This document shows, in pieces, positions 1 through 18,419 of a stretch of 64,000 bases of DNA. Below the pieces are notes generated by a model, which was given only the letters and a program-made list of their open reading frames with translations, did not search any database and was not told the origin of the DNA. The stretch covers positions 45,090 through 109,089 of the forward strand of contig CACXQV010000020.1 in NCBI GenBank assembly GCA_902769875.1, given 5' to 3'. The DNA is from an uncultured Bacteroidia bacterium (lineage in GTDB: Bacteria; Bacteroidota; Bacteroidia; Bacteroidales; F082). The position numbers and the translations under genes are program-made. Positions within the stretch are counted from its first letter, which is position 1. The number at the start of each line of letters is the position of its first letter.

Positions 1-301
1 TCACCCAAAACTCACGGTTCGTCTGCGGAATCTTGCAGCAAGAACTATTAACTCCTAACTCCACACTCTCAACTCCTAACTCCACGAAGTGTCCATGCCA
101 AAAACACCCATTAACGAAAATCGCTGTTCGATACTTGCGCATCACAATATCCGGCTTGCCCGGCACCGATTTCACGTTGAGGCGATAGCGGTAGCCGTGC
201 CGCCATAGCCATTGCCGCACCAAGAGTTCGGGCTTGGTGCCTTTGCCGTGGATGCGTGACATCACATAGTGGCGTTGCTGTGGAGTGAGGCGATCGGTCA
301 T
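1..301 (-). CDS. vsr: Very short patch repair (Vsr) endonuclease, 3' end outside the window
   Basis: Vsr enzymes nick DNA at T:G mismatches left by deamination of 5-methylcytosine and usually accompany a cytosine methyltransferase. The protein starts MTDRLTPQQRHYVMSRI and carries the family motifs KPELLVRQWLWRHGYRYRLN, GKPDIV, FVNGCFWHGH and PQTNREFW; translation runs off the left edge. Between the WHGH zinc and catalytic segment and the following cysteine there is an in-frame 42-bp insertion (44-85) of two 21-bp repeats, adding 14 residues (VELGVES VELGVNS). Without it the spacing HGH-FSCCKI-P matches the family. In E. coli Vsr a zinc site uses residues on both sides of this point, so the insertion may impair the enzyme. 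No cytosine methyltransferase is visible beside it in this window. Confidence 0.9.
   Translation of the reverse strand, partial: MTDRLTPQQRHYVMSRIHGKGTKPELLVRQWLWRHGYRYRLNVKSVPGKPDIVMRKYRTAIFVNGCFWHGHFVELGVESVELGVNSSCCKIPQTNREFWV
44..85. repeat. Two 21-bp direct repeats inserted in vsr
   Basis: Copies at 44-64 and 65-85 differ at two positions and share the core AACTCCTAACTCCAC. They sit inside the vsr reading frame and keep it open because 42 is a multiple of three. The neighbouring codons fit the family once the block is removed, so this looks like a clean insertion of low-complexity repeat DNA. Confidence 0.85.
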
Positions 302-1138: not shown

Positions 1139-3472
1139 TTATTTTTGATTATGAATTACATATTTCATTAGAGTTGCCATAGAAACGCCTTCTGGCTCGG
1201 CACTCAAATGGCCTTTTTTTATAATGCTGTCATCGGCCATCTGGGCAAGATTCCATTTTACGCCTTGAAACGCTTCTTCTGGTTCTGTGGCCGCAATATC
1301 AAATACCACATAATAAGGCAACGAAGGGGTATAGAGTTCAGCATAATGCAGTTTCATTAGAGTTTCTTTTGACATCACCCTTGGCCCTTTGTTTCCTAAC
1401 CTAAGCAAAAGTTGTTTTTCGCCTTTGTGCAGTAAAAGGTATTTTGCAGAAGAAATCTCTTGTTTCAGGCGCACAGAACCATTTCCAGTGTCGGTTCTCG
1501 TATTGTATAGTTGATTGCCAAGTATCCATTTCAGATGGCTCTCGTCGCGGAAAGAGCCTAACAACACAAAGGTTTCTTCTGGTATCAAATTGCGGTCGAT
1601 TCCATACGGCTCGGGCATGGATTCGCAAAGCACCGATGGTTCGCTGTTATATATTTCGTATGTGTGATACGATATGCGCTCGCGTTGGGAAGCCCTGTTC
1701 AGCATGTGTGCCAAAATATCACGCAAGAAGTGTTCGATTTCTTTCGAGTCTTTTTCTATGCTGTTTGGCGACAGACAAAATGCACCCAATCCAGGTAGCA
1801 CCTCATGAAAGCCTATAAGTTTCTTGTTTTCCGAGCCAGGATAAAGAATGTAGGCTCCGCTTGTCCGGCGGATGGCGTCTTTGTAAGCGTGCATTTTCAG
1901 CAAATCCACCCGTTTGTAGATGCCTTTTTCTTCTTCCCGCTTTTCTTGGTTCATCAGCATGTCTTCTTCCGAAAGGTCTGCGTCCTCGTCTTCAAAGGTA
2001 TGTGTTTCGTCTGGCTCTTTTTCGTTGAGTAGGATTCGATTCAGTTTGTATTTTGCATCGAAGTGGATGTGAACGATGATGTCTTGCTCTTCCGCTTTTT
2101 CTTCTGCATCTTTTCCAGTGATATCTCCGGGCCAAATCGATAAGGTGTAGTCGGGACGCATGGCGGTGGTCCAAGAGCCGCTTTTGTCCAATTGGTCGGA
2201 TGTGCTGAAAGTTCGGTTGTAATACAAGCGCACATTCAAAGTTCGGGAGGCTTCGTGGAACTGACCGCCAATCATTTTCATGTGGCCTTGCTTGAGTTCC
2301 AGATTGATGCGGTCTTGGTCGGTTTTGACCAATTTCTTTTCGTCTTCTTCCGTCAGTTCCAAATGGAAGGTCTGTTTGACGATGTCAAGCAACTTGAAGA
2401 ACACCCAATACTCGTAAAGTGCCGCCACATTCCGTTTGCCGGCTTGATATACATTGTCGCCACCTTTCCAAGTGATTTGTGCCGCTAATTTCGACATCAT
2501 CCAGGCTTGCAGCACTTCTCGATAACCTTCTTTGCGTTGCAAGGCGGGACTGTTCAAGGTCATGGTCTGCAAGTTGGAAACATCAAGGAAGAAACTGCGG
2601 CTCAGCCATCCCGTCAGTTTGTTGGCCGTCAGTTCGGCCTCGGTTTTCAGCCTTGGACTGGCATTTTTGCATTGCTGGATAGTGCTGCAAAATGAAGAAA
2701 ACGACTGTAACACAAACTTCACGAAACGGTTTTCCGCCACATCGACGGTGTCTTTCTTGTAGGAAACCGACAATCTTCGCGGAACGCTGTCGATATGGTC
2801 GCCGATGGTTGTTCCTTCTCCCAATGGCAGCCGATTCTTACTGGAGGCAATCTGTCTTATTTCTTGTCGTCCAAGTTTCTTTACGGAACAAATGTCTTTC
2901 TCTATGGTCGTTCCCGTCCATTTGTGGATGGGGTTGTAAAGAATCTTGTTCAAGGCTTCTTCAAACTCTTCGCTGTCCACCAACGATTTCATAAATGCAA
3001 ATTGCTGGTAAAGCGTGTTGCTGTTCTCGTTAGGATCAACTTCAAACCGTTGCGTTACAGGAGCTCCCTGCATCATTACCAAATCGGTGAAATGGCTTGT
3101 GATGTCGTGGAGCATCGTTTTGTAATCTGTCCGGTAATCCATTTTGACGGAACGCACCTCAAAACTAACCTCGGCTTCGAAGCCTGCATCGTTGGTGACA
3201 GTCAAAGTTAGGCAACCGACATAGATGCCCGTTTTAATCCAACCCCGTGAAGGTGAACTTTTTGAAGGGCGAACCAATTCGTGTTCCTTGAAACGAAACC
3301 TGTTATCACTAAATTCATACTCATATTCCTCGCCCTCCACCAGTTGCCATCTCGATTCACCCAAGTCTGCAGCTTGCTCATCCTCGAATACCTTTGCATT
3401 TTGGGACAGAGGATACACCCGCAGCATTGCTTCGTGCACTACATCAATCGGTATTTCGAGAGGCTTTGTCAT
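1139..3472 (-). CDS. DUF2357 protein with PD-(D/E)XK nuclease domain (McrC-like partner)
   Basis: 777 residues. The N-terminal part has the DUF2357 pattern, including VAENRFVKFVLQ (about 245-256) and YEYWVFFKLL (about 353-362). The C-terminal half carries a PD-(D/E)XK nuclease core: RPD with Asp441, then HFDAKYK with Asp472 and Lys474, followed by the helical KMHAYKDAIR stretch. In known systems, DUF2357 nucleases pair with McrB-like AAA+ motors and act like McrC as the DNA-cutting subunit. A McrB-like gene lies upstream in the same operon, separated from it by an AlbA_2 gene. It is the last gene of the eight-gene cluster. The 157-bp gap before it holds one copy of a 23-nt repeat. Nuclease assignment is firm by motif; the target is unknown. 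Confidence 0.8.
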   Translation of the reverse strand: MTKPLEIPIDVVHEAMLRVYPLSQNAKVFEDEQAADLGESRWQLVEGEEYEYEFSDNRFRFKEHELVRPSKSSPSRGWIKTGIYVGCLTLTVTNDAGFEAEVSFEVRSVKMDYRTDYKTMLHDITSHFTDLVMMQGAPVTQRFEVDPNENSNTLYQQFAFMKSLVDSEEFEEALNKILYNPIHKWTGTTIEKDICSVKKLGRQEIRQIASSKNRLPLGEGTTIGDHIDSVPRRLSVSYKKDTVDVAENRFVKFVLQSFSSFCSTIQQCKNASPRLKTEAELTANKLTGWLSRSFFLDVSNLQTMTLNSPALQRKEGYREVLQAWMMSKLAAQITWKGGDNVYQAGKRNVAALYEYWVFFKLLDIVKQTFHLELTEEDEKKLVKTDQDRINLELKQGHMKMIGGQFHEASRTLNVRLYYNRTFSTSDQLDKSGSWTTAMRPDYTLSIWPGDITGKDAEEKAEEQDIIVHIHFDAKYKLNRILLNEKEPDETHTFEDEDADLSEEDMLMNQEKREEEKGIYKRVDLLKMHAYKDAIRRTSGAYILYPGSENKKLIGFHEVLPGLGAFCLSPNSIEKDSKEIEHFLRDILAHMLNRASQRERISYHTYEIYNSEPSVLCESMPEPYGIDRNLIPEETFVLLGSFRDESHLKWILGNQLYNTRTDTGNGSVRLKQEISSAKYLLLHKGEKQLLLRLGNKGPRVMSKETLMKLHYAELYTPSLPYYVVFDIAATEPEEAFQGVKWNLAQMADDSIIKKGHLSAEPEGVSMATLMKYVIHNQK

Positions 3473-3520
3473 ATTAAGACATTTTTTGTACTGTTGGTTG
3501 TTCTGTTACTATTCCTTCTC

Positions 3521-3632
3521 CTTGGCAAATTACCAGCAAATTAGATCGTAAATTACATAGTATTGGTTATCAGTGTTTTATTATACAAATAGCAAGTTCT
3601 TTTATTCATCTTGGCAAATTACCAGCAAATTA
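3521..3632. repeat. Pair of perfect 23-nt direct repeats
   Basis: Identical 23-nt sequences lie at 3521-3543 and 3610-3632, 89 bp apart start to start, beginning CTTGGCAAATTACC. The second copy contains the stop codon of the AlbA_2 gene; the first lies in the gap before the DUF2357 gene. Each copy contains an inner repeat of GCAAATTA. The arrangement fits a short duplication at a junction, or a binding site. Confidence 0.8.
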
Positions 3633-5087
3633 AACAGAGGCCCAAATCGGGACATAGCGCATATATCTTTTGGCTGTGTTTGGATCAAGAGCTTTTATCT
3701 TGTTTTTATCCACAGCATCTTTTATTAATCTCGAGATACTTCCAGCTGATGAATCTTTAAGTCCAAACCTGTCCCGTAAAGAAGTGTTTGTTAAAGCATC
3801 CCCTTGAATATACATTAGGCAAGAATGAAGATAGCACGACCACAGCTTATCATCGGCGGGGATATTCTTGAACTCCATTTCAGAGAACAATGTAACCTTT
3901 GTCGATTCCTCAAAAATCTCAATTCTCGGTGCGGGAAGAAATTGCGATTCGCAAGCAAGGACCATTCTGTCCCATCCGCGCCCCAACTCCTCACACATCT
4001 TCATTCTGCGCATTAAGGATGCCAATTTCTCGTTTCTTGATTTTGGGGGATTATCAATAATTCTCATTATGTCCACCAACGGAGTGCCAGGATTGGTTAC
4101 TTCGATTCGGTTGTCAAAAACTTCCACAACCGGACCGGCTCCTGTTATATATAAGTCTTGATGGATTAAACTATTGGCTATAGCCTCTCTCACAGATGGT
4201 AAGGGATATATGCTTTTTGTGGTCAGTGCCACTGTAGCAATGTCTTCGTTGCTTGGCAAAAGTGCATTGACATATCTTACAATATTCTCAAAGCATATAG
4301 CATATCCCGTTTTGAAAGTTTCTTCTTTTTGGATAAACAATCTGTTTTTGCCTTGGTATTGAACCACTCGCATGGCTTTTCGCCCTAATCTTGGAAAGTT
4401 GTTCAAATCTTTAGCAAACAAGATTGCCCCTAAATTCGTAATCCCATATAGACCATTGTCAAGTTTGATAGCAACTCCGTCTTCCATAAGGTAGTGCATC
4501 ACCTCATTTTCTTCTGTAGGTTGAGGGAGTTTTAACATAGAGAAGTATGCCCCACAATCAATCATTTGTAGTACTTCCGCATACCTTAAATCTTTAATAG
4601 GACACACGTCTTCAAATCGACTGTTGCGAAGTTTATCCCAAAGTTGAGCCATTAGTTCGGGATAATCATTCAATTTCTTGGTGTAGCTTCCACTGCGGAT
4701 ATATTCATTTTTTTCAAAGGCAACGGGAATGTGCAATGCTTTGTGGATTCTGATGATTTCGATATGATTGCCGTCTATCTCCGTTGCCAAGAATTCAAAA
4801 TTGGCATTTCTTGACAATTGGTGTCTCAGCCAGTTTTCCAGCTCTTCTTGTCCCTTCTTCTGTAACGCAAGCCGAACAGACGTACCTATAATATCGTGTG
4901 TAGTATCGTCAACCCCAAAAATCATATAGGCAAAGTCTCTGTCTTTCAAAGTTGCCGTATTTGCAAGAGCACAGATATCCTCCCCAATCATTTTTGGGTC
5001 GTCATTATTATGCTTAAACTCCACCCAGCCAGTTTCTTTGGGCAATTTGCAGAGTTCCTTTACAAGTATGTCATAGTTTCCTTCCAT
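3630..5087 (-). CDS. AlbA_2 (Schlafen-type) ATP-binding protein with winged-helix end
   Basis: 485 residues. The N-terminus has the AlbA_2/Schlafen signature GWVEFKHN (Glu23, Lys25), then DICALANT and the glycine-rich MIFGVDD strand. A central RecG-like HATPase_c_4 region reads REAIANSLIHQDLY and FDNRIEVTNPGTPL, followed by ELGRGWDRM. The last 90 residues look like a winged helix (NTSLRDRFGLKDSSAGSISRLI). Such proteins are usually annotated as transcriptional regulators or RecG-like helicase-related proteins; some Schlafen relatives cut RNA. Here it lies between the McrB-like motor and the DUF2357 nuclease, 33 bp after the former, so it may be an added regulator or effector of the same defence operon. 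Confidence 0.8.
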   Translation of the reverse strand: MEGNYDILVKELCKLPKETGWVEFKHNNDDPKMIGEDICALANTATLKDRDFAYMIFGVDDTTHDIIGTSVRLALQKKGQEELENWLRHQLSRNANFEFLATEIDGNHIEIIRIHKALHIPVAFEKNEYIRSGSYTKKLNDYPELMAQLWDKLRNSRFEDVCPIKDLRYAEVLQMIDCGAYFSMLKLPQPTEENEVMHYLMEDGVAIKLDNGLYGITNLGAILFAKDLNNFPRLGRKAMRVVQYQGKNRLFIQKEETFKTGYAICFENIVRYVNALLPSNEDIATVALTTKSIYPLPSVREAIANSLIHQDLYITGAGPVVEVFDNRIEVTNPGTPLVDIMRIIDNPPKSRNEKLASLMRRMKMCEELGRGWDRMVLACESQFLPAPRIEIFEESTKVTLFSEMEFKNIPADDKLWSCYLHSCLMYIQGDALTNTSLRDRFGLKDSSAGSISRLIKDAVDKNKIKALDPNTAKRYMRYVPIWASV

Positions 5088-5120
5088 AAGTTCTTAGTTG
5101 TACGTATCTCAACTATTTCT

Positions 5121-6734
5121 TTACGCCTCCGCAAAACTAGTAAATCCATTGTCCACAACGGCATTGTACATCCTTTGAATCTTCTCCGCAGATTCGGGAT
5201 ATTTGAAATCATCCTTGTTGAACTCGGCTTCTATCTCTTTGGCAACGCCATCGTTGAGACAGAGTTTCCACATTGAAGTAAGCACTGGCACAAGTTTCTT
5301 GCGGGAGCCGTGCAGTTTGGGCAGCAGCTTTTGCAGGATGGCGGTGTCTATGGCTGAATCAGCAGACAAATCTCCTTCGGCGAAATGCAAGTAACGGCTG
5401 ATTTCGTTCACGGTGCGATAGCCAAATTCGGCGTTGACCTCTTTCAACTCCTTGAAGAACGAAAGCAAAACATCCTTGTTCTTCTCGTCTTTTTCAACTT
5501 GACTATTGGCTTTGTTTACAAAATCGACAGCCATGTCTGCGCATGCTGAATAGGCTTGTTCAAGATTGATGTTTACTTTTTTACCCAAATAGTCCTCCAT
5601 TTCATTAGGGGCAATCTTGAACTCAATCACATTGGCGCGGTCGAGCACCTTGGGGCTGAACATATAGGTGGTTTCGTCCACATTGATGGTACCGACGATG
5701 AAGACATTCTTGGGCAATTCAATTTCTTTGGGAACGTTTCCTTCTTCATTGTCCCAAAGTTTGATAGGTTCGCCCGATTCCATAGCACTGAGAAAATCTG
5801 CAAAGTAGCGTTCCACCACGCTGAGGTTCATTTCGTCGAGAATCAGGAAATAGGGTTTGCTCTGGTCCTCGTTGGCTCGCATCAAAAGTTGAAGCACTCC
5901 GCTTTCGGGCAGTACATACTCCCCGCTTTTTAAGGCATTGGGATAGCCCAACAATGGTTCACGGTTGGTCCAATCCGCCCCGATGGAAACCGTGCAGACC
6001 TGCTCCTCGATGTTCTCGCTCAAACATTTGGCAAAAGCCAACGCCAGTTGCGTCTTTCCCGAACCCGCCAGACCGCTGAGGATAACGAAAGGCTTGGCCA
6101 TCAGCGAAAAGGCGAGGCGTTTGATGAGGGTTTCGGAATAGATTAGGCCGGTGGAGAGGATAGAGGTGACAACTTGGTCGATCATAAATGAATCATTATG
6201 TAGCGAATCCTCGTTTTCTACTTTTGTTTTATTAACCATGATCAGTTGAGAGGAATACATTTTAGAATTGGCTTTTTTCACAAAATCAACAAAAAATCTT
6301 TGCTTGCTATTTTGATATATTGCCATCGCAAAATCGTTAATGCGAAGATTCTTCTTCTCTTCCGTTTCATGACCAACCCATTGATTGCTAATATAGTATT
6401 CTTTTCCATCAATCAAAAATGTTTTCTCTGTTATCCATCTTGTTAAATCTTTACCTGTTAAAGATGGGTAAATATCAACAGATAAAAACAAACGTGGTAT
6501 CCTTATGCTATCAAACACATAAATCATGTAATCTAACTTTCCTGAATTATCAGGAACTATATGTTTCATGAATGATTGGAAAACATCTTGATAATGTTTT
6601 TCTAAATACGACAATACTTTAAAAGGAAAATCGCTGTAATACTGAGATTCAACCAAAATCGTTGTTTCGTATTTGGTCTTCATTTCTTTTGCTATAGATT
6701 CCACTATAGCCATAAGGTCGTTGTTTTCAGCCAT
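5121..6734 (-). CDS. McrB-like AAA+ ATPase/GTPase
   Basis: 537 residues. The AAA+ core has Walker A GLAGSGKT (221-228), Walker B FLILDE (297-301) and the McrB-type sensor GTINVDETT (348-356) with LDRANV as the arginine-finger segment. These are features of the McrB/AAA_5 clade, in which the ring-forming NTPase drives DNA translocation and activates a McrC-type nuclease. The N-terminal 200 residues have no domain I recognise and could read DNA or modified bases. Its expected partner, a DUF2357 nuclease, lies two genes downstream. The 115-bp gap before it shows no clear TAnnTTTG promoter on this strand, which supports transcription from upstream. Confidence 0.85.
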   Translation of the reverse strand: MAENNDLMAIVESIAKEMKTKYETTILVESQYYSDFPFKVLSYLEKHYQDVFQSFMKHIVPDNSGKLDYMIYVFDSIRIPRLFLSVDIYPSLTGKDLTRWITEKTFLIDGKEYYISNQWVGHETEEKKNLRINDFAMAIYQNSKQRFFVDFVKKANSKMYSSQLIMVNKTKVENEDSLHNDSFMIDQVVTSILSTGLIYSETLIKRLAFSLMAKPFVILSGLAGSGKTQLALAFAKCLSENIEEQVCTVSIGADWTNREPLLGYPNALKSGEYVLPESGVLQLLMRANEDQSKPYFLILDEMNLSVVERYFADFLSAMESGEPIKLWDNEEGNVPKEIELPKNVFIVGTINVDETTYMFSPKVLDRANVIEFKIAPNEMEDYLGKKVNINLEQAYSACADMAVDFVNKANSQVEKDEKNKDVLLSFFKELKEVNAEFGYRTVNEISRYLHFAEGDLSADSAIDTAILQKLLPKLHGSRKKLVPVLTSMWKLCLNDGVAKEIEAEFNKDDFKYPESAEKIQRMYNAVVDNGFTSFAEA

Positions 6735-6849
6735 ATTATGAATGTTTAATCAGTCTGTTTAGTGGTTTTCGCTAAAATGTTAGTATGTTAGTGAAAGCTG
6801 CCGATGTCTGCGAGCAAATCTATGAATGTGTATTTTTTCTTTGGCATAA

Positions 6850-7995
6850 TCACTTTATTGCTTGGCTAGGGATACTCGGCAACCCTTGTCTTTGTATATA
6901 TGAAGAATACTTTTGTTGTATTCTTGTAATAAATGGAGGTAAGAGACGACCACAGCGATTGACTTTTACTTCATTCCATTTCTTGATGTCAAGTTTGCGC
7001 AAAGAAAAACGCAATATCTTTCCATCAACAAATGCCACAAAACAGTTATTGATTTTCTCTTGAAATTCTCCTTGAGAAAAAACTATTTTGTCATCCGTGT
7101 TTGAATTAATTTTAGCCTCCTCAATAACATTTCCTTTCAAAAGATACAAGTCCTTCTTTTCTCTAATTATATCACAATCAGGACGAATGTTGATATAATA
7201 ATTATTGTCTATCAAATAAATGTCTCCTGCAAATGGGTAATCAGGCAACTTGTTATTTGGGATAAAACGCTCACATTCTAAAATTTTGCGTACTTCCTCT
7301 TTTGTGATGCCTTCCTTTTCCAAACCAATTATATCGTTGTCAAATTCTGGAAAAACAATACGATAAGACAAGTTATTTTGTAAGGAATTCATCAACTCCC
7401 AATTTTTGTCTCCGCCATCATCTTGGATTGCTTTTGTCAACACTGAAGGCCAAAAGGGATTCGTTGAGCTTAATTCAGAAAGCATTATAGTTTTTGCCTC
7501 TCTTGTTGCTTTTTCCCATTCTTTCAGCACATAAATAGAAGGCGTTTCTTTAACCCACTTTTCTATCTCATCAAACAGTTTGTCAACCGTGTCAAGATTT
7601 TCTTTCTTTTTTATGAAAATGGGGCAATTTTGAGGACTAATGTTTTGTTCTGATAAAGCCACCTCTATCGTATGAGGATCCTCGTCGCTAAAAATGAACA
7701 ATGGAACAAAACAAACCTCAAATAATTTTTTTATGAACTCAATATTGTCAGTAATAGTAGCATCCGGAATTGGATGAAAACCACTTAAATTCCAATCTAA
7801 AATCAAAAAGCTAATAGAATGCAATCGTGATATTTCGTTATCGTTGGGCAAAACTTCATATTCAAGCACGGGGATATACTTGCTCTTAATAGATTGAACA
7901 ATTTTTTGAATGCCATTCGGTGTCTCATTGTCCTCATAGATGGCCTCGTCAATAACAACGCTAATGCCAGAAAAAAGTTGAACAGTATCAGTCAT
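6850..7995 (-). CDS. Receiver (REC)-domain protein with unrecognised C-terminal domain
   Basis: 381 residues. The first 130 form a CheY-like receiver: Asp16 after the first strand, the phospho-acceptor Asp67 in FLILDWNLSG, Ser103 in LFIFSDED and a lysine in IFIKKKEN (129-131). The remaining 250 residues lack a DNA-binding output domain; they contain a strand-rich section (DIYLIDNNYYINIRPDCDII) and a conserved-looking end RCGRLLPPFITRIQQKYSSY. The gene overlaps the end of the GHKL/histidine-kinase-like gene by 8 bp. That strongly suggests the two proteins form a kinase-receiver pair within the restriction-like operon, rather than a normal transcriptional two-component system. Confidence 0.75.
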   Translation of the reverse strand: MTDTVQLFSGISVVIDEAIYEDNETPNGIQKIVQSIKSKYIPVLEYEVLPNDNEISRLHSISFLILDWNLSGFHPIPDATITDNIEFIKKLFEVCFVPLFIFSDEDPHTIEVALSEQNISPQNCPIFIKKKENLDTVDKLFDEIEKWVKETPSIYVLKEWEKATREAKTIMLSELSSTNPFWPSVLTKAIQDDGGDKNWELMNSLQNNLSYRIVFPEFDNDIIGLEKEGITKEEVRKILECERFIPNNKLPDYPFAGDIYLIDNNYYINIRPDCDIIREKKDLYLLKGNVIEEAKINSNTDDKIVFSQGEFQEKINNCFVAFVDGKILRFSLRKLDIKKWNEVKVNRCGRLLPPFITRIQQKYSSYIQRQGLPSIPSQAIK

Positions 7996-10255
7996 TTTCG
8001 TCAGAATTTACAAAGTTAATCACAAAATTGGCACCCGAAAGGATCTGCTCGGAAGGAATTTCAGCCAAAGAAATGGAATAGCCCATTCTTTGGAGCAGTT
8101 GTCTTGCTATATATAATCCCAATCCACGACCATCCTCTTTCCCTGAATAAAAAGCCTCAAAAATATACGGTTTATCGTCCTCTCGGATACCAGGCCCGTT
8201 ATCAGAAAAGATAACTTGTTGGTTATTTCCGTCAAGTGTGATGGTAATTTTCTTTTCTACAATATCAGGCATAGCCAACCAATATACGGCATTGTCAAAC
8301 AGATTTATAAGTAGTTGTAGAATGACGGCATCAGTGCATTTGGCAATAATAGGTGAACCAATTTTATTTACGGAATATTCTATGTGCTCTCTGTTCAGGG
8401 TCCGTTTGTAGATTTTCTCCACTTTTTCAAGTAAATCCTCAAAACGAATCGGTCTTCTTCTTTGTTTCGAGGACTTGAACATCAATTGAATATCTCTCAT
8501 TTGGTCCTTTACGAAGGAAAACATTCCCCTGATGGAATGCAATTCGTTTTCAATTTGTTCGTCAGTCAGAACACCTCCGTCAATATCTTTGATTAAATTA
8601 TCAATAGCATCGACACCTTTAGTCAGCATCATAGACATATCGTGTGAGGCGGTTTCTACGGACAACCCTACGGCAGCCAAATCTTCGGTGTTATCAAGTC
8701 TGTTTTGGTAAAACTTCTTTTCAATTTGATACGTTCTGTACAAATTATTGTAAGCTGCCAAGGCTTTTGTGTTACCACCAATACTGTCTTTTAACTGTGT
8801 AAATTGGTTGTCTACAACTTTTAACTTATTGATTTGCTGTTCTTTCTGCTGCTTTGTTCTTTCTTGGTATTGCCGGTAGGCGTGTTGTCGAATGAACAAT
8901 AAGAAAGAGTGTAGCAAAACGATAAAATCTCGCGTAGCATTTCCTTCTTCAATTAACCCTTCTCGATTTGTTTTATCTTTTAGTTTTGGATTCCCATGTT
9001 TGGAAATGTCAACAAATCCAACCACTTGATCGTTGCTAAGATAGTCACCCGCACGTCCTACGCCTCTTTTCTTGTCAATCTCAAGCCAATCATTGTCGGG
9101 GTCTCCGTACGGAGCAACGCGAATATGGTCTCTGTATAAATATATCCTGTGTTCTTTTATTGTTTCTTTGTCTTTTTTATCTAAATAGTATGCGCCGCTT
9201 TCCCTATCAGCCGCAAAATCAAAAACGAAAAAATTAAACTTGAAATCTCCACATGTTGTTTTTCTGATTTCTATTTCGTCAAATAGATTCTTCTCGGCAA
9301 AACGTTCTTTGAATACGGTCAACCCGGAAATTTGACTGTCTTTAAGCGATAGAGCATAGGGGACATTGTTTATTTTGTAAGTAAAACGCCCTTCTTTTTC
9401 TGAATATAAACCATTCGTTATTTTAAGAACTGCGGAATTTTCTAACAAAGATGACAATTCTTTGATGGTTTCATCAGAATATAACAATCTGTCGCCGTTG
9501 CATTCAAATCCAATTTCGAAAAGATCCTCTTTTTTCTTTTCGGAGAAAATTTTTTCGAAGATGGATTCAAGCTTTTGCGATTCGGCATTTACTTTTTTAA
9601 TCTTGTCAAAAGACCACTCGCCTTTAAGATTGGAAATTTCAATAATAGTACCATGATTGTTTCCTTTCTCAAATACAGTGTTATTGACGGTCACTTTTCT
9701 GTCCACCAATAGAAACGGCGTTTGCTCAGAAACAGGAATGTTGATATCGTCAATGAACAACTGTTTATCTTTGCCGTCTTCGGTTAGGAAATCATCATCG
9801 TACTGAGACAATTTATAGTCAATGACGTATTCGGTGTTTTCATCTTCGGGTCTTGTCGTGATTTTTATATCTCTACCCAATTTAAGAATGGCAAATCGAC
9901 CTATACCCTTTTCACCTTGAATAATTCGATGCTTCTTTGGAGTAGTCTTTATTTCTTCGTTTTCTCGTGTTTTTTTGTTTGGCGTGGCAGGATTCATCCA
10001 ACTATCTTCAATGACTTTCAAAGTCATACCACATCCATTGTCTTCCACAATAATCTTTGAATCCTTGGTTTTGAGGATTTCTTTTTTCTTCTCATCGTAG
10101 CAGAAATTAACAAAACTAACCTTGACCCAATCAGCATCGGCGTCATACGAGTTTTTGATGAGTTCTGCCAAAGCGATTTGCTCATTCTTGATAAGTTGTT
10201 CCCCAAGCATAGTAAGCAAACGAGCGTATGGCCTTATTTTCATTGTCTTATTCAT
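7988..10255 (-). CDS. Double-GHKL protein: Hsp90/MORC-like ATPase plus histidine-kinase core
   Basis: 755 residues with two separate GHKL ATP sites. The N-terminal one is Hsp90/MutL/MORC-like: ELIKNSYDADAD (31-42), DNGCGM (72-77) and GEKGIGR (114-120). The C-terminal one is histidine-kinase-like: LLINLFDNAVYW (about 648-659), DNGPG (685-689) and GRGLGLYIA (709-717). Ahead of the second lies a candidate H-box, VETASHDMSMM, with His538, and a coiled-coil-like stretch rich in Q, K and E (about 465-490). There is no signal peptide or membrane segment, so it should be cytoplasmic. It starts 6 bp after the methyltransferase gene and overlaps the receiver gene. GHL ATPases in restriction-modification operons have been described (MORC ancestors); the fusion with a kinase core is the notable point. 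Confidence 0.85.
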   Translation of the reverse strand: MNKTMKIRPYARLLTMLGEQLIKNEQIALAELIKNSYDADADWVKVSFVNFCYDEKKKEILKTKDSKIIVEDNGCGMTLKVIEDSWMNPATPNKKTRENEEIKTTPKKHRIIQGEKGIGRFAILKLGRDIKITTRPEDENTEYVIDYKLSQYDDDFLTEDGKDKQLFIDDINIPVSEQTPFLLVDRKVTVNNTVFEKGNNHGTIIEISNLKGEWSFDKIKKVNAESQKLESIFEKIFSEKKKEDLFEIGFECNGDRLLYSDETIKELSSLLENSAVLKITNGLYSEKEGRFTYKINNVPYALSLKDSQISGLTVFKERFAEKNLFDEIEIRKTTCGDFKFNFFVFDFAADRESGAYYLDKKDKETIKEHRIYLYRDHIRVAPYGDPDNDWLEIDKKRGVGRAGDYLSNDQVVGFVDISKHGNPKLKDKTNREGLIEEGNATRDFIVLLHSFLLFIRQHAYRQYQERTKQQKEQQINKLKVVDNQFTQLKDSIGGNTKALAAYNNLYRTYQIEKKFYQNRLDNTEDLAAVGLSVETASHDMSMMLTKGVDAIDNLIKDIDGGVLTDEQIENELHSIRGMFSFVKDQMRDIQLMFKSSKQRRRPIRFEDLLEKVEKIYKRTLNREHIEYSVNKIGSPIIAKCTDAVILQLLINLFDNAVYWLAMPDIVEKKITITLDGNNQQVIFSDNGPGIREDDKPYIFEAFYSGKEDGRGLGLYIARQLLQRMGYSISLAEIPSEQILSGANFVINFVNSDEND

Positions 10256-10261
10256 ATTGGC

Positions 10262-11524
10262 TTACTTTTTCATTATTATCACATACTCATTCGGATACAC
10301 TTTTTTGCAATTGGGATTGTCCTGTTTTGTGAACCTACCTGTGTTTTTATCCCTTAGAGTGGGCATCAATTTGTGAGGAATGCTTCGCTTTATCACATCC
10401 ACTTTTTTCAAACCTGCATTTTTCAGAAACTCATAGAACACTTCTGCCGATTTTATCTGAACTTCCTTTATCTTTGTATTGCCAATCACAATGCAGGCAT
10501 GTCCGTTTGGAGCAAGCACTCTTGCCATCTCTTTGGCAACTTCTTGCATGTCATTAAAGTACTGCGCAACATCTCGTGCAATATGCATGCTTTTTTCCGA
10601 TAAATCATTGACAATCTTTTGGGCTTGTTTGCTGTCTGAAACTGTTAGTGAATCATTTCCAGAGTAGGAAGAGCCAATGAACTTTTTGCGGAACTCATGA
10701 ATATCAGAAATATACTCCATCCAATAGGCTGTTAATTGATGGATGTCTGCATATTCATAAGATGTTACGTAAGGAGGTGATGTAATAATTGCATTTATAC
10801 TTCCTGTTGGGATTGACGTATGGCGGGCATCCTCCAATAGGATTTCACATGTGGTATTCAGCAGCCCCTTCTGACTTAATTCTTCATAGAAGTTTCTGTT
10901 CCAGTCCATCATCCTCTTACAGTGACGACAGAATTCATCAAAGGGATCTTCAAGTTTCTTTCCCATATCTCTTTGAGGCTTTGTACCAGATTGCAACCAC
11001 CATGAACAGTTTTTCAAAATATGAGAGATACAGACACAGAAGAAATCCTTTATATCATCGTTTATAACAGAATTGTAAACCTTATCATACAGAAAAGCAA
11101 TTTTGGCTTTTTGTGGTAGAGTAAACCAATAGTCTATCCTTTCATGCTTTTCTATGGCTGTATAATCGTCCTCATTATATTCATCAAACAATGCCACTAA
11201 ATCATCATATGCCAGTTTAAGAGCATCTGGTGTAATGGGAGTTGTCTTTACCTTTGTTATAAGCTGAGCCACGGGATTAATATCCGTCCCCACAGAAGCG
11301 ATACCATGAACTTTTGCTTCAACCAATGTCGTTCCGCACCCAGCAAACAAATCAGCTATTCGAATACTATTTTGTGTATAGTCTTCAATAATTTTTCTAA
11401 CGACATCAGGGAGAAACTTCGCTGGATAACGATGGTATCCATGAGTCCATTGTTCCGTAGAACGAACATTTTCAAATGCCCATTCTCGATTCTCGGGTAT
11501 GTTGTCAAAACTTATATAACGCAT
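10262..11524 (-). CDS. Site-specific DNA methyltransferase (amino-methylating, SPPY type)
   Basis: 420 residues. Motif I is DLFAGCGTTLVEA (58-70), with the acidic cofactor contact GTDINPVA just after. Motif IV is TSPPY (248-252), the catalytic loop of N6-adenine or N4-cytosine methyltransferases. The FxGxG motif precedes SPPY. The region 95-240 between them probably holds the target-recognition part. It overlaps the Toprim gene by 13 bp and is followed at 6 bp by the double-GHKL gene, so it should be made together with them. Likely role: protect host DNA at the site surveyed by the operon's nuclease. The base modified cannot be told from sequence. Confidence 0.85.
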   Translation of the reverse strand: MRYISFDNIPENREWAFENVRSTEQWTHGYHRYPAKFLPDVVRKIIEDYTQNSIRIADLFAGCGTTLVEAKVHGIASVGTDINPVAQLITKVKTTPITPDALKLAYDDLVALFDEYNEDDYTAIEKHERIDYWFTLPQKAKIAFLYDKVYNSVINDDIKDFFCVCISHILKNCSWWLQSGTKPQRDMGKKLEDPFDEFCRHCKRMMDWNRNFYEELSQKGLLNTTCEILLEDARHTSIPTGSINAIITSPPYVTSYEYADIHQLTAYWMEYISDIHEFRKKFIGSSYSGNDSLTVSDSKQAQKIVNDLSEKSMHIARDVAQYFNDMQEVAKEMARVLAPNGHACIVIGNTKIKEVQIKSAEVFYEFLKNAGLKKVDVIKRSIPHKLMPTLRDKNTGRFTKQDNPNCKKVYPNEYVIIMKK

Positions 11525-12132
11525 AATAATTTGTCATTTAAAAAATTCCTCAACGCCCCCAAATACTCCGCATCCAAATTCCAGTGTTGTGTGTTCTCAT
11601 ATTCGCGGTTGGGTTCTTTGATCAACTCCTTTTGGCTCTTCGACTCTCCCAACAAGGCTTCGAGATAACCATAAATCTTGGTTTTCTTGGCTGGCGTGGT
11701 CAAGGGCGGGGGCGTTCTGCCTGGAATGTCCAATTTCACTAGTTCCTTTTCGTATCCTTCCCAACAATCAAAAATCGGCTTGTTGTTCGGATTGATGATG
11801 TTTTCCAAAAGGTCTTCCAATGCACCAGCATCTTTGTCGTTGGGCAGCAAAAACAGCTCAAACTCCAAACTGTTATCTTGTTTCCATTTGAGTATGTCGG
11901 AGCGGCGGGCATCGATGTCTTTGTCAGCGTCAATGATGACGATATTTGTGCCGCCATTGTCGGTCATGGTTTTCATGCGCTGTTGCCAAGCGGTTCCTTT
12001 GAGATTGGTCCAACCATCCAGCTTCACGATGCTATTCTCAGGAATCTCAATGCCCAACACATGATGAATGTATTGCTTGAAGAATACCACATCAGCAATG
12101 CCCTCTACATATATGTTGAACAAGCCTTTCAT
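11512..12132 (-). CDS. DUF3226/Toprim-fold protein
   Basis: 206 residues. The pattern IYVEGIADVVFFKQYI (conserved Glu, then Asp), NIVIIDADKDIDARR (Asp-x-Asp) and FLLPNDKDAGALEDLLENII matches the DUF3226 branch of Toprim-like proteins. Toprim domains bind metal and cut nucleic acid in OLD-family nucleases. The gene begins with a 4-bp overlap (ATGA) with the end of the ATPase gene, so the pair probably forms a split OLD-like ATPase-nuclease, comparable in logic to PARIS or Gabija but with a different Toprim family. It overlaps the methyltransferase gene by 13 bp at its other end. Confidence 0.75.
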   Translation of the reverse strand: MKGLFNIYVEGIADVVFFKQYIHHVLGIEIPENSIVKLDGWTNLKGTAWQQRMKTMTDNGGTNIVIIDADKDIDARRSDILKWKQDNSLEFELFLLPNDKDAGALEDLLENIINPNNKPIFDCWEGYEKELVKLDIPGRTPPPLTTPAKKTKIYGYLEALLGESKSQKELIKEPNREYENTQHWNLDAEYLGALRNFLNDKLLCVI

Positions 12133-13208
12133 AACACAACGCTTCTGATTTCAATGTCATTATTACACGCTTCTGCAAGTCCTTCATAGGTATATTTATA
12201 AGCCTGATGCCCTTTCAGTTTCGTGTTTTCAATCGTATAGAGCCGCAACGCATCTTGATACTCCGAATGTTCTTCAAGCATCTCGTTCAAGCGGTAAAGT
12301 GTTTCCTTGCTGTGGGTGGTCACAAACACCTGTTTGTTGGTATCGGTGGCCAAGGCAAAGATGGCCTCCCAAAGTTTCTTGTAGGCGGAATAATGCAGGC
12401 CGTTGTCAATCTCGTCAATCAAGATGATGTTGTTCATCGGATTGGCGGAGGCAGCCACGATGTTTAGGTAACGGCGCAGACCATCGCCCATCATGTTTAC
12501 CATCATCAACTGGTCTATACCATCCAGACCGATATATGCCACGTTGTTCAATATTTCCCATGTGGTGATATGGCTGTCAAAATTCGATAGGTATTTCGTT
12601 ATGACCTCCTTTTTCTTTCGTTTGGCAAGTTCAACCAAATCGTTAGTTGGGACTCCCAAAGCAATGTCAGCTGGTAAAAATGCTACTGTGTTCTTTTCCA
12701 GATACCCCTCGGCAATCTTTTTGCCAGTGACTTGATTCATCTGATTAAAAGTAACACTGCTTTCATAACTGCTTTTCTTTTGATTGACTTCAACTTCAAA
12801 CAGCAATTTCAAAGTGTTAAAGAAGGTCTTCGTTTCAGAGGTGGGAATATGTCCTTGGGGTAGATCAACTTGCGCCTTTTCGTCAAAGGTGTATGTCATT
12901 TCCAATGCCAAATGACGCATCGACCCATCAAACATTTCAGAGGAAATCATGGGACTTACCTTTAGATTGCCATTGTGGAACATATATTCCAAATCCGCAA
13001 AATTGCTATAGCCTCGCGATCTAATATTATTGATACTTTGAGGCAGGTCGGGGTTTGACATTCCCATCAGCAATAAAAAACTTTCCAACACGGAGCTTTT
13101 TCCCGAACTGTTTTGCCCAAGAAAAACATTCACACGCGACAAATCGTCAATCGTCAAATGCTCAATCCCTCTAAAGTTCTTGATTTCCAAATTCTTGAAT
13201 CCGTCCAT
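12129..13208 (-). CDS. OLD/RecF-like AAA ATPase
   Basis: 359 residues of the ABC-like SMC/RecF/OLD ATPase group. Walker A is GQNSSGKSS (31-39) after LEIKNFRGIEHL; Walker B is IILIDEIDNGLH, followed by the KQVFVTTHSKE histidine switch. There is no Toprim domain fused at the C-terminus; it is encoded by the next gene, which starts within the stop codon region. This is the first gene of the eight-gene minus-strand operon, and a TATATTTG promoter lies 25 nt upstream. By analogy with OLD-type systems it may sense DNA or phage proteins and gate the Toprim subunit. Confidence 0.85.
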   Translation of the reverse strand: MDGFKNLEIKNFRGIEHLTIDDLSRVNVFLGQNSSGKSSVLESFLLLMGMSNPDLPQSINNIRSRGYSNFADLEYMFHNGNLKVSPMISSEMFDGSMRHLALEMTYTFDEKAQVDLPQGHIPTSETKTFFNTLKLLFEVEVNQKKSSYESSVTFNQMNQVTGKKIAEGYLEKNTVAFLPADIALGVPTNDLVELAKRKKKEVITKYLSNFDSHITTWEILNNVAYIGLDGIDQLMMVNMMGDGLRRYLNIVAASANPMNNIILIDEIDNGLHYSAYKKLWEAIFALATDTNKQVFVTTHSKETLYRLNEMLEEHSEYQDALRLYTIENTKLKGHQAYKYTYEGLAEACNNDIEIRSVVL

Positions 13209-14827: not shown

Positions 14828-14949
14828 TTGCGATTTTCGGCGTTTTAGGGTAAAAACATTTTGCGATTTTCGGCAATTTTCCAAGAAAACATTTTGCGAT
14901 TTTTGGCATTTTAGGGTAAAAACATTTTGCGATTTTCGGCAAAGTGCGT
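14828..14949. repeat. 33-bp tandem repeat, about 3.6 copies, in a promoter region
   Basis: The word TTGCGATTTT(C/T)GGC starts at 14828, 14861, 14894 and 14927, an exact 33-bp period. Full units carry TTTTAGGGTAAAAACAT or a variant between the words. The last partial copy supplies the TTTG -33 element of the promoter for the next gene. 33 bp is close to three helical turns, so the copies would present the same face of DNA to a protein. Confidence 0.85.
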
Positions 14950-14956
14950 ATTTTTG
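14926..14956 (+). promoter_or_regulatory. Perfect TTTG-N19-TAnnTTTG promoter
   Basis: TTTG at 14926-14929 is followed by exactly 19 nt and then TATTTTTG at 14949-14956, the full Bacteroidetes consensus. The ATG at 14972 lies 15 nt later. This promoter overlaps the upstream TTG-initiated extension of the reading frame, which decides the start in favour of 14972. Confidence 0.8.
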
Positions 14957-14971
14957 CCGCGAAAAACCAAC

Positions 14972-16315
14972 ATGGAAATGGCAACGCATACTTTCAAAAG
15001 GAAGATTTATGACAAACTGCTCAAATGGAAAACGGAGCGTCAGGGCAAGTCGGCGATTCTTGTTCAGGGCGCAAGACGAGTGGGGAAGTCAACCATAGTG
15101 GAGGAGTTCGCCAAACGTGAATATAAGTCTTATATCCTGATTGATTTCTCCACTTGCGCAAAAGAGGTTTTCGACCTGTTCAACGACATTTCGGACTTGA
15201 ACTATCTTTTTGTGCGCCTTCAACTGAATTACAATGTCAGTTTGCATGATCGGCAGTCGGTCATCATTTTCGACGAGGTGCAGAAACAGCCTTTGGCTCG
15301 CCAAGCCATCAAGCATCTGGTGGCTGATGGCCGTTATGATTATATTGAGACAGGTTCGCTGATTTCCATTCGCAAGAATGTCAAGGATATAGTCATTCCC
15401 AGCGAGGAAACTCGTGTCAATATGTATCCTATGGATTATGAGGAATTTAGATGGGCTTTGGACGACACGGCTACTGTTCCGTTGCTGCGGTCAATCATGG
15501 AGAAGCCTTTGCCCTTGGGGGGCACTCACAGGAAATTATTGCGCGATTTTCGCCTTTATATGCTTGTGGGCGGGATGCCTCAAGCCGTGGACGAATACCT
15601 TGCAACCAACAATCTGGCCAATGTCGATGCTGTCAAGCGCGATATTTTGGCGCTTTACGAAGGCGATTTCTACAAAATTGACGACTCAGGGACGCTTTCG
15701 ATGCTTTTCAATGCCATACCCGCCGAACTCAACAAAAATGCCTCTCGCTATCAGATTTCCAGTGTCATCGAAAATGGCAGGGTTGACCGGATGACGGAAT
15801 ACATCGCTGACTTGAAAGAGTCAATGACAGTCAATATGGCCTACTTTGTCAGCGACCCTAACGCTGGGATGTCGTTCTGCAAAGACCTTAACCGTTACAA
15901 GATGTTTCTCGCCGACACGGGTCTTTTTGTCACTTTGGCTTTTCGCGACAAAGATTTCACCGAAAATGTCATCTATCAGAAACTTTGGAACGACAAGTTG
16001 AGTACCAACCTCGGCTATCTGTATGAAAATGTGGTGGCTCAAATGTTGAGAGCGGCGGGAAACGAACTTTTCTATCACACATTCCCGACAGAAAAGGGTA
16101 ACCGAAATTATGAAATCGACTTTTTGTTGGCTCGGAAAAACAAGGTGTGTCCTATAGAGGTGAAATCGTCGGGCTACAGCACCCATGCCTCGCTTGATGC
16201 TTTCTGCAACAAATATTCCGATAGAATCCTTGACAAGTATCTCATTTATTCCAAGGACATCAAAAAAGACAAGGGTGTTCAATACCTTCCGTTTTATATG
16301 ACGATGTTCTTGTAA
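14972..16315 (+). CDS. AAA_14/DUF4143 family ATPase
   Basis: 447 residues. The N-terminal P-loop domain has AILVQGARRVGKSTIVEEF (Walker A) and SVIIFDEVQKQP (Walker B), followed by YIETGSLIS; the C-terminal part contains LYENVVAQML and a nuclease-like core NYEIDFLLARKNKVCPIEVKSS, in which Glu-x-Asp and Glu-x-Lys are the DUF4143 PD-(D/E)XK-like residues. Such proteins are very common in Bacteroidales, often in multiple copies; their role is unsettled. Its promoter carries a 33-bp tandem repeat. It is transcribed alone: the terminator at 16408 lies beyond it, and the next genes run the other way. Confidence 0.85.
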   Translation: MEMATHTFKRKIYDKLLKWKTERQGKSAILVQGARRVGKSTIVEEFAKREYKSYILIDFSTCAKEVFDLFNDISDLNYLFVRLQLNYNVSLHDRQSVIIFDEVQKQPLARQAIKHLVADGRYDYIETGSLISIRKNVKDIVIPSEETRVNMYPMDYEEFRWALDDTATVPLLRSIMEKPLPLGGTHRKLLRDFRLYMLVGGMPQAVDEYLATNNLANVDAVKRDILALYEGDFYKIDDSGTLSMLFNAIPAELNKNASRYQISSVIENGRVDRMTEYIADLKESMTVNMAYFVSDPNAGMSFCKDLNRYKMFLADTGLFVTLAFRDKDFTENVIYQKLWNDKLSTNLGYLYENVVAQMLRAAGNELFYHTFPTEKGNRNYEIDFLLARKNKVCPIEVKSSGYSTHASLDAFCNKYSDRILDKYLIYSKDIKKDKGVQYLPFYMTMFL

Positions 16316-17479: not shown

Positions 17480-17689
17480 TCGGAACAACAGAAAGCCATC
17501 GTGAAGGTCGCGCCAATTGGACTGATTGGCATGTTGGGTGTTCCATTGTTTAATGTATGCATCGGACGGCAAACTTGGATGGATACGCTTCGGGATTCTT
17601 TAATGAGCATAGGTGTTTGGGCGGTCTTGATCGGGTTGTTTTTGCTTGGGTCGAGGGTGCCGAAAAATGGGAAAGGAGAAGCAAAATGA
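17471..17689 (+). CDS. Small two-helix membrane protein
   Basis: 72 residues, no family recognised. Two hydrophobic stretches, VAPIGLIGMLGVPLFNV and IGVWAVLIGLFLLG, are likely membrane helices, separated by a charged loop; the C-terminus is basic (RVPKNGKGEAK). It lies directly behind a TATATTTG promoter and its stop overlaps the start of the MNT gene (ATGA), so it is the first gene of a three-gene unit with the MNT-HEPN pair. Confidence 0.65.
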   Translation: MQLSEQQKAIVKVAPIGLIGMLGVPLFNVCIGRQTWMDTLRDSLMSIGVWAVLIGLFLLGSRVPKNGKGEAK

Positions 17690-18000
17690 GTAGAAAGGAA
17701 ATAGTGTTACAAATTCAGATGCTGATGCGGCATTTGTTTCCCACTGCGGAGGTCATTTTGTATGGCAGCGAGGCTCGTGGTGAGGCAAGGCCCGACAGCG
17801 ATATAGACCTGCTTATCCTTGTCGATGGCGACAAACTTACTTTGGCACAGGAAGATGCGGTCACCACACCACTCTATGAATTGGAATTGCAAACAGGCGT
17901 AGTCATCAGCCCGATTGTGATGCTGAAAAAGCAATGGGAAAACCGCCCGTTGGTAACACCATTTTACCTCAATGTAATGAAGGAAGGAGTAAGACTATGA
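17686..18000 (+). CDS. MNT-type nucleotidyltransferase (antitoxin candidate)
   Basis: 104 residues. The minimal nucleotidyltransferase signature YGSEARGEARPDSDIDLLI is complete: Gly27-Ser28 and Asp39-x-Asp41. In MNT-HEPN modules this protein adds nucleotides to the HEPN partner and silences it. The start at 17686 was chosen over longer frames because it forms a 4-bp overlap with the membrane-protein gene, and the stop again overlaps the HEPN start. The chain of overlaps indicates one tightly coupled operon. Confidence 0.85.
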   Translation: MSRKEIVLQIQMLMRHLFPTAEVILYGSEARGEARPDSDIDLLILVDGDKLTLAQEDAVTTPLYELELQTGVVISPIVMLKKQWENRPLVTPFYLNVMKEGVRL

Positions 18001-18419
18001 GCGGATTGGATGACGAAAGCAGAAAAGCCTTGGTTGATTATCGCCTTGAAAGGGCGTATTCCACGATGAAGGAGGCATCCGTAATGTCCGAAAAGGAGTT
18101 CTATAATGCTGCGGTGAATCGGTTGTATTATGCGTGTTATTATGCTACGGAAGCCTTGCTTTTGAAACATAAAATCGAAGCCAAGTCACATGCAGGAGTT
18201 AAGGTTATGCTTGGACTGCATTTTGTGTCAAAAGGATTGGTGCCAGTCTCGATTGGCAAAATATTGTCAACACTTTATGAAAAAAGGCAAAGCGGTGATT
18301 ATGACGACTTTATCTATTGCGACAAGGAAATGACCGATGACCTCACAATACAAGCACAAACATTTATTGACTACGTTGTTAAGTTAGTACATGATGATTC
18401 CATAGAATTGAACGATTAA
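17997..18419 (+). CDS. HEPN-domain protein (UPF0332 type), toxin candidate
   Basis: 140 residues, all-helical. The motif NRLYYACYYATEALL and SHAGVKVMLGLHFVSKG are typical of the UPF0332 HEPN group. The usual RNase motif of the group is Arg-x6-His; here Arg42 is followed six residues later by Tyr49 instead of His, so catalytic activity is doubtful or altered. It starts by ATGA overlap with the MNT gene. The DPP7-type peptidase gene follows after 11 bp without a terminator. Confidence 0.8.
   Translation: MSGLDDESRKALVDYRLERAYSTMKEASVMSEKEFYNAAVNRLYYACYYATEALLLKHKIEAKSHAGVKVMLGLHFVSKGLVPVSIGKILSTLYEKRQSGDYDDFIYCDKEMTDDLTIQAQTFIDYVVKLVHDDSIELND

Follow-up and report, generated by a model that had tools for sequence, protein, structure and literature searches.

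The DNA analysed here, the window, is a stretch of 64,000 nucleotides from an uncultured Bacteroidia bacterium (contig CACXQV010000020.1, positions 45,090 to 109,089), and eight open reading frames (ORFs), all on the minus strand, occupy window positions 1139-13208. These genes form a mosaic operon. A DNA methyltransferase, a kinase and a receiver, hereafter the trio, lie in an exchange slot (slot A) between an ATPase-Toprim pair and a McrB-like gene, and a second slot (slot B) separates the McrB-like gene from a DUF2357 nuclease gene. The reading that we favour, to which we assign a probability of about 0.55, is that slot A holds a methylation-guarded signalling trio, in which the kinase takes the place of a nuclease and a receiver of predicted MazF fold is the output.

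The operon begins with an AAA_15 (OLD/AbiLi-like) ATPase (P0001, 12129..13208; Pfam AAA_15, 8.7e-23; PADLOC AbiLi, 1.3e-63) and a DUF3226 protein (P0002, 11512..12132; Pfam DUF3226, 3e-12), the first two genes of the frame. E10, D68 and D70 of P0002, presumably the E and DxD pattern of a Toprim protein, are unchanged in 12 of 12 aligned relatives. The trio follows: an N6/N4 DNA methyltransferase with an SPPY motif (P0003, 10262..11524; Pfam N6_N4_Mtase, 3e-20; PADLOC MTase_II, 7.8e-63), the kinase (P0004, 7988..10255) and the receiver (P0005, 6850..7995). Next come a McrB-like AAA+ protein with the NxD motif TINVDE (P0006, 5121..6734; PADLOC PDC-M26A, 1.5e-47), the slot B occupant (P0007, 3630..5087; Pfam SLFN_AlbA_2, 7e-17, and HATPase_c_4, 9e-20) and the last frame gene, encoding a McrC-like nuclease (P0008, 1139..3472; Pfam DUF2357, 8.5e-40, and PDDEXK_7, of PD-(D/E)XK type, 6.2e-27). 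The gaps between consecutive ORFs, from P0001 to P0008, are -4, -13, +6, -8, +115, +33 and +157 bp. A sequence-only reading made earlier from the letters of the window had listed these eight genes in this order on one strand, with overlaps of 4, 13 and 8 bp and a 6 bp gap among the first five; ORF coordinates, domain searches and measured spacing agree with it.

The trio recurs elsewhere as an integral unit. Kinase and receiver searches found it in 11 further loci (L001, L002, L003, L005, L040, L041, L042, L043, L044, L064 and L065), and its order and strand are identical in all 12 loci when the window is counted, the methyltransferase of L043 being cut at a contig edge. The hosts fall into three phyla: Bacteroidota, a Bryobacterales metagenome-assembled genome (MAG), which we take to belong to Acidobacteriota, and an Allorhizobium conjugative plasmid. 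In a Lachnospiraceae MAG (L004) the contig ends after the methyltransferase and the kinase. Receiver queries returned five full-length loci other than the window (two in 295 other genomes, two in 394 and one plasmid record), and kinase and methyltransferase adjoin the receiver in all five. The plasmid search gave one match to P0005, that of Allorhizobium, and none when the receiver of L070 was the query; no relative of P0004 was found among viral contigs. Partial matches to the receiver profile were seen beside a C5 methyltransferase and a GHKL gene in L066 (tail), L070 (receiver part) and L068, and beside a GHKL gene with no methyltransferase identified in L069; the match in L067 lies where its contig ends, and no GHKL is visible there. 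L066 is a more distant locus, and its receiver, whose tail is of the same type, adjoins the GHKL gene and the C5 methyltransferase.

Within the trio, kinase and receiver co-vary. Across 11 loci (55 pairs, L043 being omitted for its cut methyltransferase), pairwise identities of kinase and receiver correlate with r 0.81, rising to 0.97 once L003 is excluded; the corresponding values are 0.52 and 0.35 for methyltransferase and kinase, and 0.29 and 0.32 for methyltransferase and receiver. The kinase-receiver correlation indicates that these two behave mostly as a cognate pair and that the methyltransferase is more replaceable. Two further arrangements were noted. About 5 kb from the N6/N4 trio of L043, on the same contig, lies a second set made up of a C5 methyltransferase, a GHKL gene and part of a Response_reg_2-like gene (L043:9475-14000), and a Campylobacter jejuni conjugative plasmid (L056, CP120313.1) carries a double-GHKL kinase called as two ORFs, together with a response regulator that shares the tail family of P0005.

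The genes that surround the trio in the window recur with other contents between them. When 173 family genomes, that of the window among them, were searched with P0002 (Toprim) and P0008 (DUF2357), matches came from 16 and 22 genomes respectively, many of them weak, and both frame ends lie on one strand in seven other genomes (L114, L115, L116, L117, L118, L119 and L121), L121 being a frame locus without a Toprim gene and L120 a duplicate contig of L119. The N6/N4 trio is lacking in all seven. Their slot A holds a C5 methyltransferase and a single-GHKL paraMORC-type protein in L114, PD-Lambda-5_A (2.4e-174) and a D12 methyltransferase in L115, a single-GHKL paraMORC-type protein with a sub-threshold HSDR_N_2 match in L116, PDC-M30A/B in L117, a C5 methyltransferase, a double GHKL and a receiver in L118, and a C5 methyltransferase with HNH_2 in L121; in L119 the slot is empty, with 69 bp from Toprim to McrB. 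Several of these C5 labels come from blastp alone. In L126, L127 and L052, AAA_15 and Toprim genes without P0008 are followed by a C5 methyltransferase, a double GHKL and a receiver, so that methylase-kinase-receiver sets of different families occupy this position at five of 11 AAA_15 loci (the window, L118, L126, L127 and L052). Slot B holds AlbA_2-type proteins or YhcG nucleases, with YhcG in L114 and a homologue in L116, and is empty in L117.

The edges of slot A could be placed by DNA comparison. Its right edge in the window lies at 11519..11541: the AAA_15-Toprim block shared with relatives ends at 11541 in seven, at 11540 in one and at 11526 in one (9 of 9 compared), and the trio is shared with L003 from 11530 and with L001 from 11519. 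On the other side the shared McrB block starts at 6152-6182 in five relatives and spans the N-terminal domain in two (6707 and 6857). The protein alignment agrees, in that the AAA core of P0006 is kept and the N-terminal domain exchanged; as regards a McrB reader domain for modified bases, the N-terminus has no Pfam match, and relatives bear differing ones. Because a chimeric window alone could yield the same edges, the relatives were also compared with one another. This count used nine relatives with a close Toprim, excluding L128 and L129 (30-34% identity) and the duplicate L120, with L121 lacking the gene. In 31 of 36 pairs the shared DNA stops close to the Toprim gene end, at most 60 bp short of it or 20 bp past it, and in most pairs the McrB gene is shared for about 1030-1095 bp up to its stop codon. 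The other five pairs share more than 20 bp past Toprim: L114-L118 (1092 bp), L126-L127 (1533 bp), L117-L119 (39 bp), L118-L126 (28 bp) and L118-L127 (28 bp). Cassettes are thus exchanged at the Toprim end and within the McrB gene, and the mutual comparison makes exchange at these edges a property of the locus. At 11512-11541 the window's Toprim gene loses its match to relatives about 29 bp before the gene end, about 20 bp earlier than in most pairs of relatives, as if the tail of the gene had come with the trio.

The operon lies at a chromosomal site with fixed neighbours, genes that we take to be those of an S46 peptidase, rpmF and DUF177, and with highly varied contents. We surveyed 23 sites anchored on DUF177, with at least 80% DUF177 identity and at least 8 kb of sequence. 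Left out were L131, L132 and L136 (below 8 kb), a duplicate G359 contig and 28 sites at 61-75% DUF177 identity, several short contigs, at which blastp found none of the eight window families; 38 further DUF177 matches at 38-47% lie outside the count, and the contigs of L114, L118, L052 and L127 are not DUF177-anchored. AAA_15 is present at seven of the 23 sites, and six of those seven carry a close McrB-DUF2357 pair. Both frame ends occur at six sites, one at two and neither at 15 (Fisher p 0.0005; counts 6/1/1/15). A McrB-DUF2357 pair also occurs at L176, where it is more distant and AAA_15 is absent, and the pair at L147 is very distant; when the pair at 22-28% is counted, the figures become six, three and 14 (p 0.0017; 6/1/2/14). 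These p-values are too small, since shared ancestry is uncorrected. No AAA_15 was found in the sequence read at four loci with distant DUF2357 homologues (43-53%; L047, L123, L124 and L125, the last with little upstream sequence), and the frame may therefore have been put together locally and recently. L126 (9035-10612; G403), at the same chromosomal site, encodes a genuine Response_reg_2 protein (PF19192, 2.5e-25) with a GHKL protein and a C5 methyltransferase as neighbours; upstream lies an AAA_15 protein that matches the window's at 100% identity over 359 residues.

These distributions bear on the proposal of the sequence-only reading that the eight genes make up one methylation-guided system, in which a sensor ATPase and phospho-relay gate two nucleases. 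In such a system the relay would detect methylation status and turn on the AAA_15-Toprim pair as well as the McrB-DUF2357 pair. The single strand, overlapping genes and tight spacing would fit such a system, as would the co-occurrence of the outer pairs above chance at the site, the presence after AAA_15-Toprim, in five of 11 loci, of methylase, double-GHKL and receiver genes drawn from several families, and the published association of NxD-type McrB with two-component genes (PMC11090510, in the passages available). Yet blastp found no homologue of P0001, P0002, P0006 or P0008 in the sequence read at the 11 other trio loci, an absence that is weak at L001 and L043, which are cut near the trio, and at L064, which ends soon after it, because the contigs end there; L003 and L041 carry a second McrB family instead of the window's outer genes. 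Conversely, the outer pairs occur without the N6/N4 trio in seven of seven other framed loci, one of them with an empty slot. A kinase half that matches P0004 is found at two of seven sites with AAA_15 and at two of 16 without it, and the N6/N4 trio at two of the 23 sites (the window and L181). The gene-order search that the earlier reading had called for thus found parts of the set together elsewhere, and the exact eight-gene set at one of the 23 sites, the window, and at no other locus read. One eight-gene system is accordingly not favoured, as its parts recur in other combinations, and we consider it very doubtful that a single relay governs both pairs. What survives of the proposal is the methyltransferase-kinase-receiver unit with its kept residues; the gating of two nuclease pairs is not supported.

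At the other extreme, the operon could be an ordinary defence island, in which unrelated systems have accumulated at a single site and nothing beyond the trio is functionally linked. Fixed chromosomal neighbours around many differing contents are what such an island would show, but the frame keeps its strand, order and position around changing cargo, the exchange points fall at the Toprim end and inside McrB, and the order of the trio is constant across phyla. We regard this account as somewhat unlikely.

The architecture of the kinase suggests how the trio might work. P0004 has an N-terminal GHL (paraMORC-like) ATPase domain, a DHp-like segment with His538 and a C-terminal histidine-kinase ATPase domain (Pfam HATPase_c_3, 7e-21, and HATPase_c, 5e-20). 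All 10 kinases compared agree at the 18 positions checked, which cover the two ATPase sites and His538-Asp539. Residues 14-145 match the BbrUII/HgiDII restriction enzymes (3.8e-15), and P0004 therefore looks like a fusion of a paraMORC-type ATPase with a histidine kinase, a label based on the GHL domain and its context, with no family model behind it.

The receiver carries a tail that gives the trio a candidate output. The AlphaFold model of P0005 (mean predicted local distance difference test score, pLDDT, 85) starts with an alpha/beta domain, continues with a helical linker and ends in a beta domain. All 11 homologues compared share D16, D67 and K131, which together with the model point to a receiver fold; position 104 varies, and a Ser/Thr at 103 falls outside the motif count. 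At E 0.1 P0005 has no Pfam match, neither to PF19192 (Response_reg_2) nor to PF02452 (MazF/PemK). Foldseek with the whole model placed KdpE and AmiR first, then arginine decarboxylases, MazF chains and further receiver domains. The tail (6853..7278), modelled alone from 14 sequences (pLDDT 87), is predicted to have a MazF/PemK-like fold: the best 50 of its 524 PDB matches are MazF or other toxin-antitoxin toxins or endoribonucleases of MazF type, with probabilities of 0.99-1.00 and template-modelling scores of 0.47-0.72 by target and 0.43-0.56 by query. Seven tail positions (G18, D19, C35, D36, P115, R130 and P134 in domain numbering) are invariant in 14 of 14 sequences and mark a separate family.

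The favoured reading joins these features as follows. The frame, comprising AAA_15-Toprim, the McrB AAA core, the DUF2357 nuclease and Vsr, encloses slots whose contents are exchanged. Within slot A the methyltransferase would mark host DNA, and the N-terminal GHL ATPase, akin to paraMORC-type restriction enzymes, would monitor DNA. Where marks are missing or the DNA is altered, the C-terminal kinase would phosphorylate Asp67 of the receiver by way of His538; phosphorylation would free or activate the MazF-fold domain, which would block growth, for example by cutting RNA. Kinase and toxin-like output would then replace the nuclease of other paraMORC systems, and the trio may by itself make up a complete module of abortive type that would serve in phage defence. 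The fullest form of this idea can be put forward tentatively: an immune module that signals instead of cutting, slotted between the Toprim and McrBC pairs, in which an ATPase-kinase detects unmodified or altered DNA and by phosphotransfer activates a MazF-type toxin gated by the receiver, while a methyltransferase open to exchange provides the self mark.

Several observations weigh against it. The kinase of L003 is 96% identical and its receiver 39% identical, so partners can be swapped, and the BbrUII/HgiDII match of P0004 lies far under that model's own cut-off. In the search with the whole receiver model the MazF matches (best E 3.1e-3) rank under response regulator, AmiR and arginine decarboxylases, and the Foldseek outputs carry no aligned ranges; for the tail the best E is 5.7e-3 and none reaches 0.001. 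No solved structure matches P0005 by sequence at E 10, and a profile comparison of the tail with PemK gave a probability of 4.1%, a value that is uninformative because that profile held a single PemK sequence. The invariant tail positions are not tied to the MazF active site. As no sequence search backs the MazF link, the fold of the tail is a prediction. Finally, the window's assembly is 82.6% complete with 5.7% contamination, and a misjoin at the edges of slot A in the window itself is conceivable.

A different use of the same genes would make the trio a regulator, whose receiver controls the expression or activity of the methyltransferase and nearby restriction genes and has no toxin role. 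Control of restriction-modification systems by such pairs is the subject of speculation in the accessible part of one paper (PMC8011034), and paraMORC families adjoin restriction genes in passages of another (PMC2292703). Set against this, no transcription regulator is found among the best 50 of the 524 tail matches, which are of MazF type, and the two downstream genes searched at L042 are of housekeeping types, the upstream genes lying outside that search. We judge a purely regulatory trio unlikely. If instead the favoured route from kinase to MazF fold is true, restriction-modification has a signalling branch in which loss of a methyl mark leads to growth arrest and not to DNA cutting, and an output domain is suggested for a receiver class published without one. 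The fixed frame and its changing slots offer defence cassettes exchanged within an operon and traceable genome by genome.

Other features of the window and its relatives can be described briefly. A Vsr-like endonuclease gene on the minus strand (1..301) runs past the window edge as a 183-residue ORF spanning -250 to 301; the label comes from a homologue annotated as a very short patch repair endonuclease, and homologues are common at the corresponding far end of the relatives' sites. The sequence-only reading had given the first gene alone a clear promoter. A TAnnTTTG element does lie 33 bp ahead of the first start codon, but within 14 kb there are 11 copies on the gene strand and 10 on the opposite strand, among them one that lies 88 bp ahead of the McrB-like gene, one 52 bp ahead of that for AlbA_2 and one 23 bp ahead of that for the receiver. 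The pattern is too frequent for placing transcription starts and was rejected for that purpose. Next to the defence site, on the plus strand (14927-16315), a 462-residue ATPase-like protein shares a blastp cluster with a gene of the L123 locus, and two adjoining small genes at 17557-18419 presumably form a nucleotidyltransferase/HEPN pair. The second McrB family appears in L003 (13421-20089), L127 (11559-18551) and L041 in operons with two C5 methyltransferases, then a McrB-like AAA gene (labelled REase_II by PADLOC in L003) and a protein of about 740 residues without a Pfam match; we take these to resemble LlaJI-type restriction operons. The assignment of the 740-residue partner as DUF2357-like was not accepted (hhalign probability 41% over 130 C-terminal columns). 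In L041, L137, L142 and L146 a YhcG/DUF1016-type gene, labelled by blastp except in L041, lies between the second McrB-like gene and this partner, just where McrB-DUF2357 operons have AlbA_2 or YhcG.

Comparison with known systems separates the outer pairs from the trio. The earlier view that OLD with Toprim and McrB with DUF2357 are separate defence themes is borne out by the PADLOC matches, and the outer pairs probably act independently, as AbiL/PARIS-like and McrBC-like systems. The PADLOC comparison that it had suggested yielded matches to AbiLi, PDC-M26A and MTase_II among others, nothing for P0005 in PADLOC-DB 2023, and for P0004 a marginal match alone, to MzaB (0.0073). AbiL and PARIS are counted among ATPase-Toprim systems in the part of a recent paper available (PMC12409363). 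The window shares with them an AAA_15 ATPase adjoining a Toprim protein and differs in that the partner is DUF3226. AbiLii matched weakly (0.0015), and AriA matched (1.8e-23) with no AriB among the four PADLOC matches of P0002, so that the pair does not qualify as PARIS. MADS brings together a methyltransferase, an AAA ATPase and regulatory genes, with its own kinase type. The window has the same kinds of gene, and among the matches listed mad2 (2.7e-7), mad3 (3.2e-16) and mad8 (6.8e-4) are each outscored by other families; on these matches the window was not classed as MADS. P0006, with its NxD/NxxD motif, and its DUF2357-PD-(D/E)xK partner P0008 show the signature motif and the nuclease partner of type IV McrBC, with PDC-M26B matching weakly (1.3e-4), Pfam AAA_5 (5.9e-4) below cut-off and the NCBIfam McrB subunit model (3.2e-7) far under its own. 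Bell (2024; PMC11090510) notes, in the passages available, operons that combine NxD-type McrB genes with those for methyltransferases and two-component systems. The GTPase motif, the nuclease partner and this operon context are shared with the window, whereas the window's two-component unit is exchangeable and also seen without McrBC, the published gene sets not being given in those passages.

For the trio the nearest relatives are of two kinds. paraMORCs, described by Iyer (2008; PMC2292703), and BbrUII/HgiDII share, as far as the accessible text goes, an N-terminal GHL ATPase near methyltransferases, Vsr and nucleases; the window's ATPase differs in being fused to a histidine kinase. A GHKL-Shedu protein is described in the part of another paper available (PMC12137116). 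A literature search, with most subscription papers and bioRxiv outside it, found no report of the window's gene set, and titles from a full-text search included no fusion of MazF to a receiver, response regulator or histidine kinase. The earlier statement that the set has no name thus holds for the exact combination, while similar pairs and operons have been described in the available passages of PMC8011034 and PMC11090510. In the former, Bellieny-Rabelo (2021) reports histidine kinase-like and response regulator-like pairs that adjoin restriction-modification systems, the HEF_HK/Response_reg_2 pair. Its accessible text shows the same plan as the window: a kinase with HATPase_c_3, a DHp histidine and HATPase_c, a neighbouring receiver without other known domain, a methyltransferase upstream and restriction genes nearby. 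P0004 and P0005 were rejected as members of PF19191 and PF19192, having no match at E 0.1, and by this profile evidence the trio falls outside the published models. It differs further in that the window's methyltransferase is of N6/N4 type, those described in the accessible text being mainly C5, and in the MazF-fold tail proposed for P0005.

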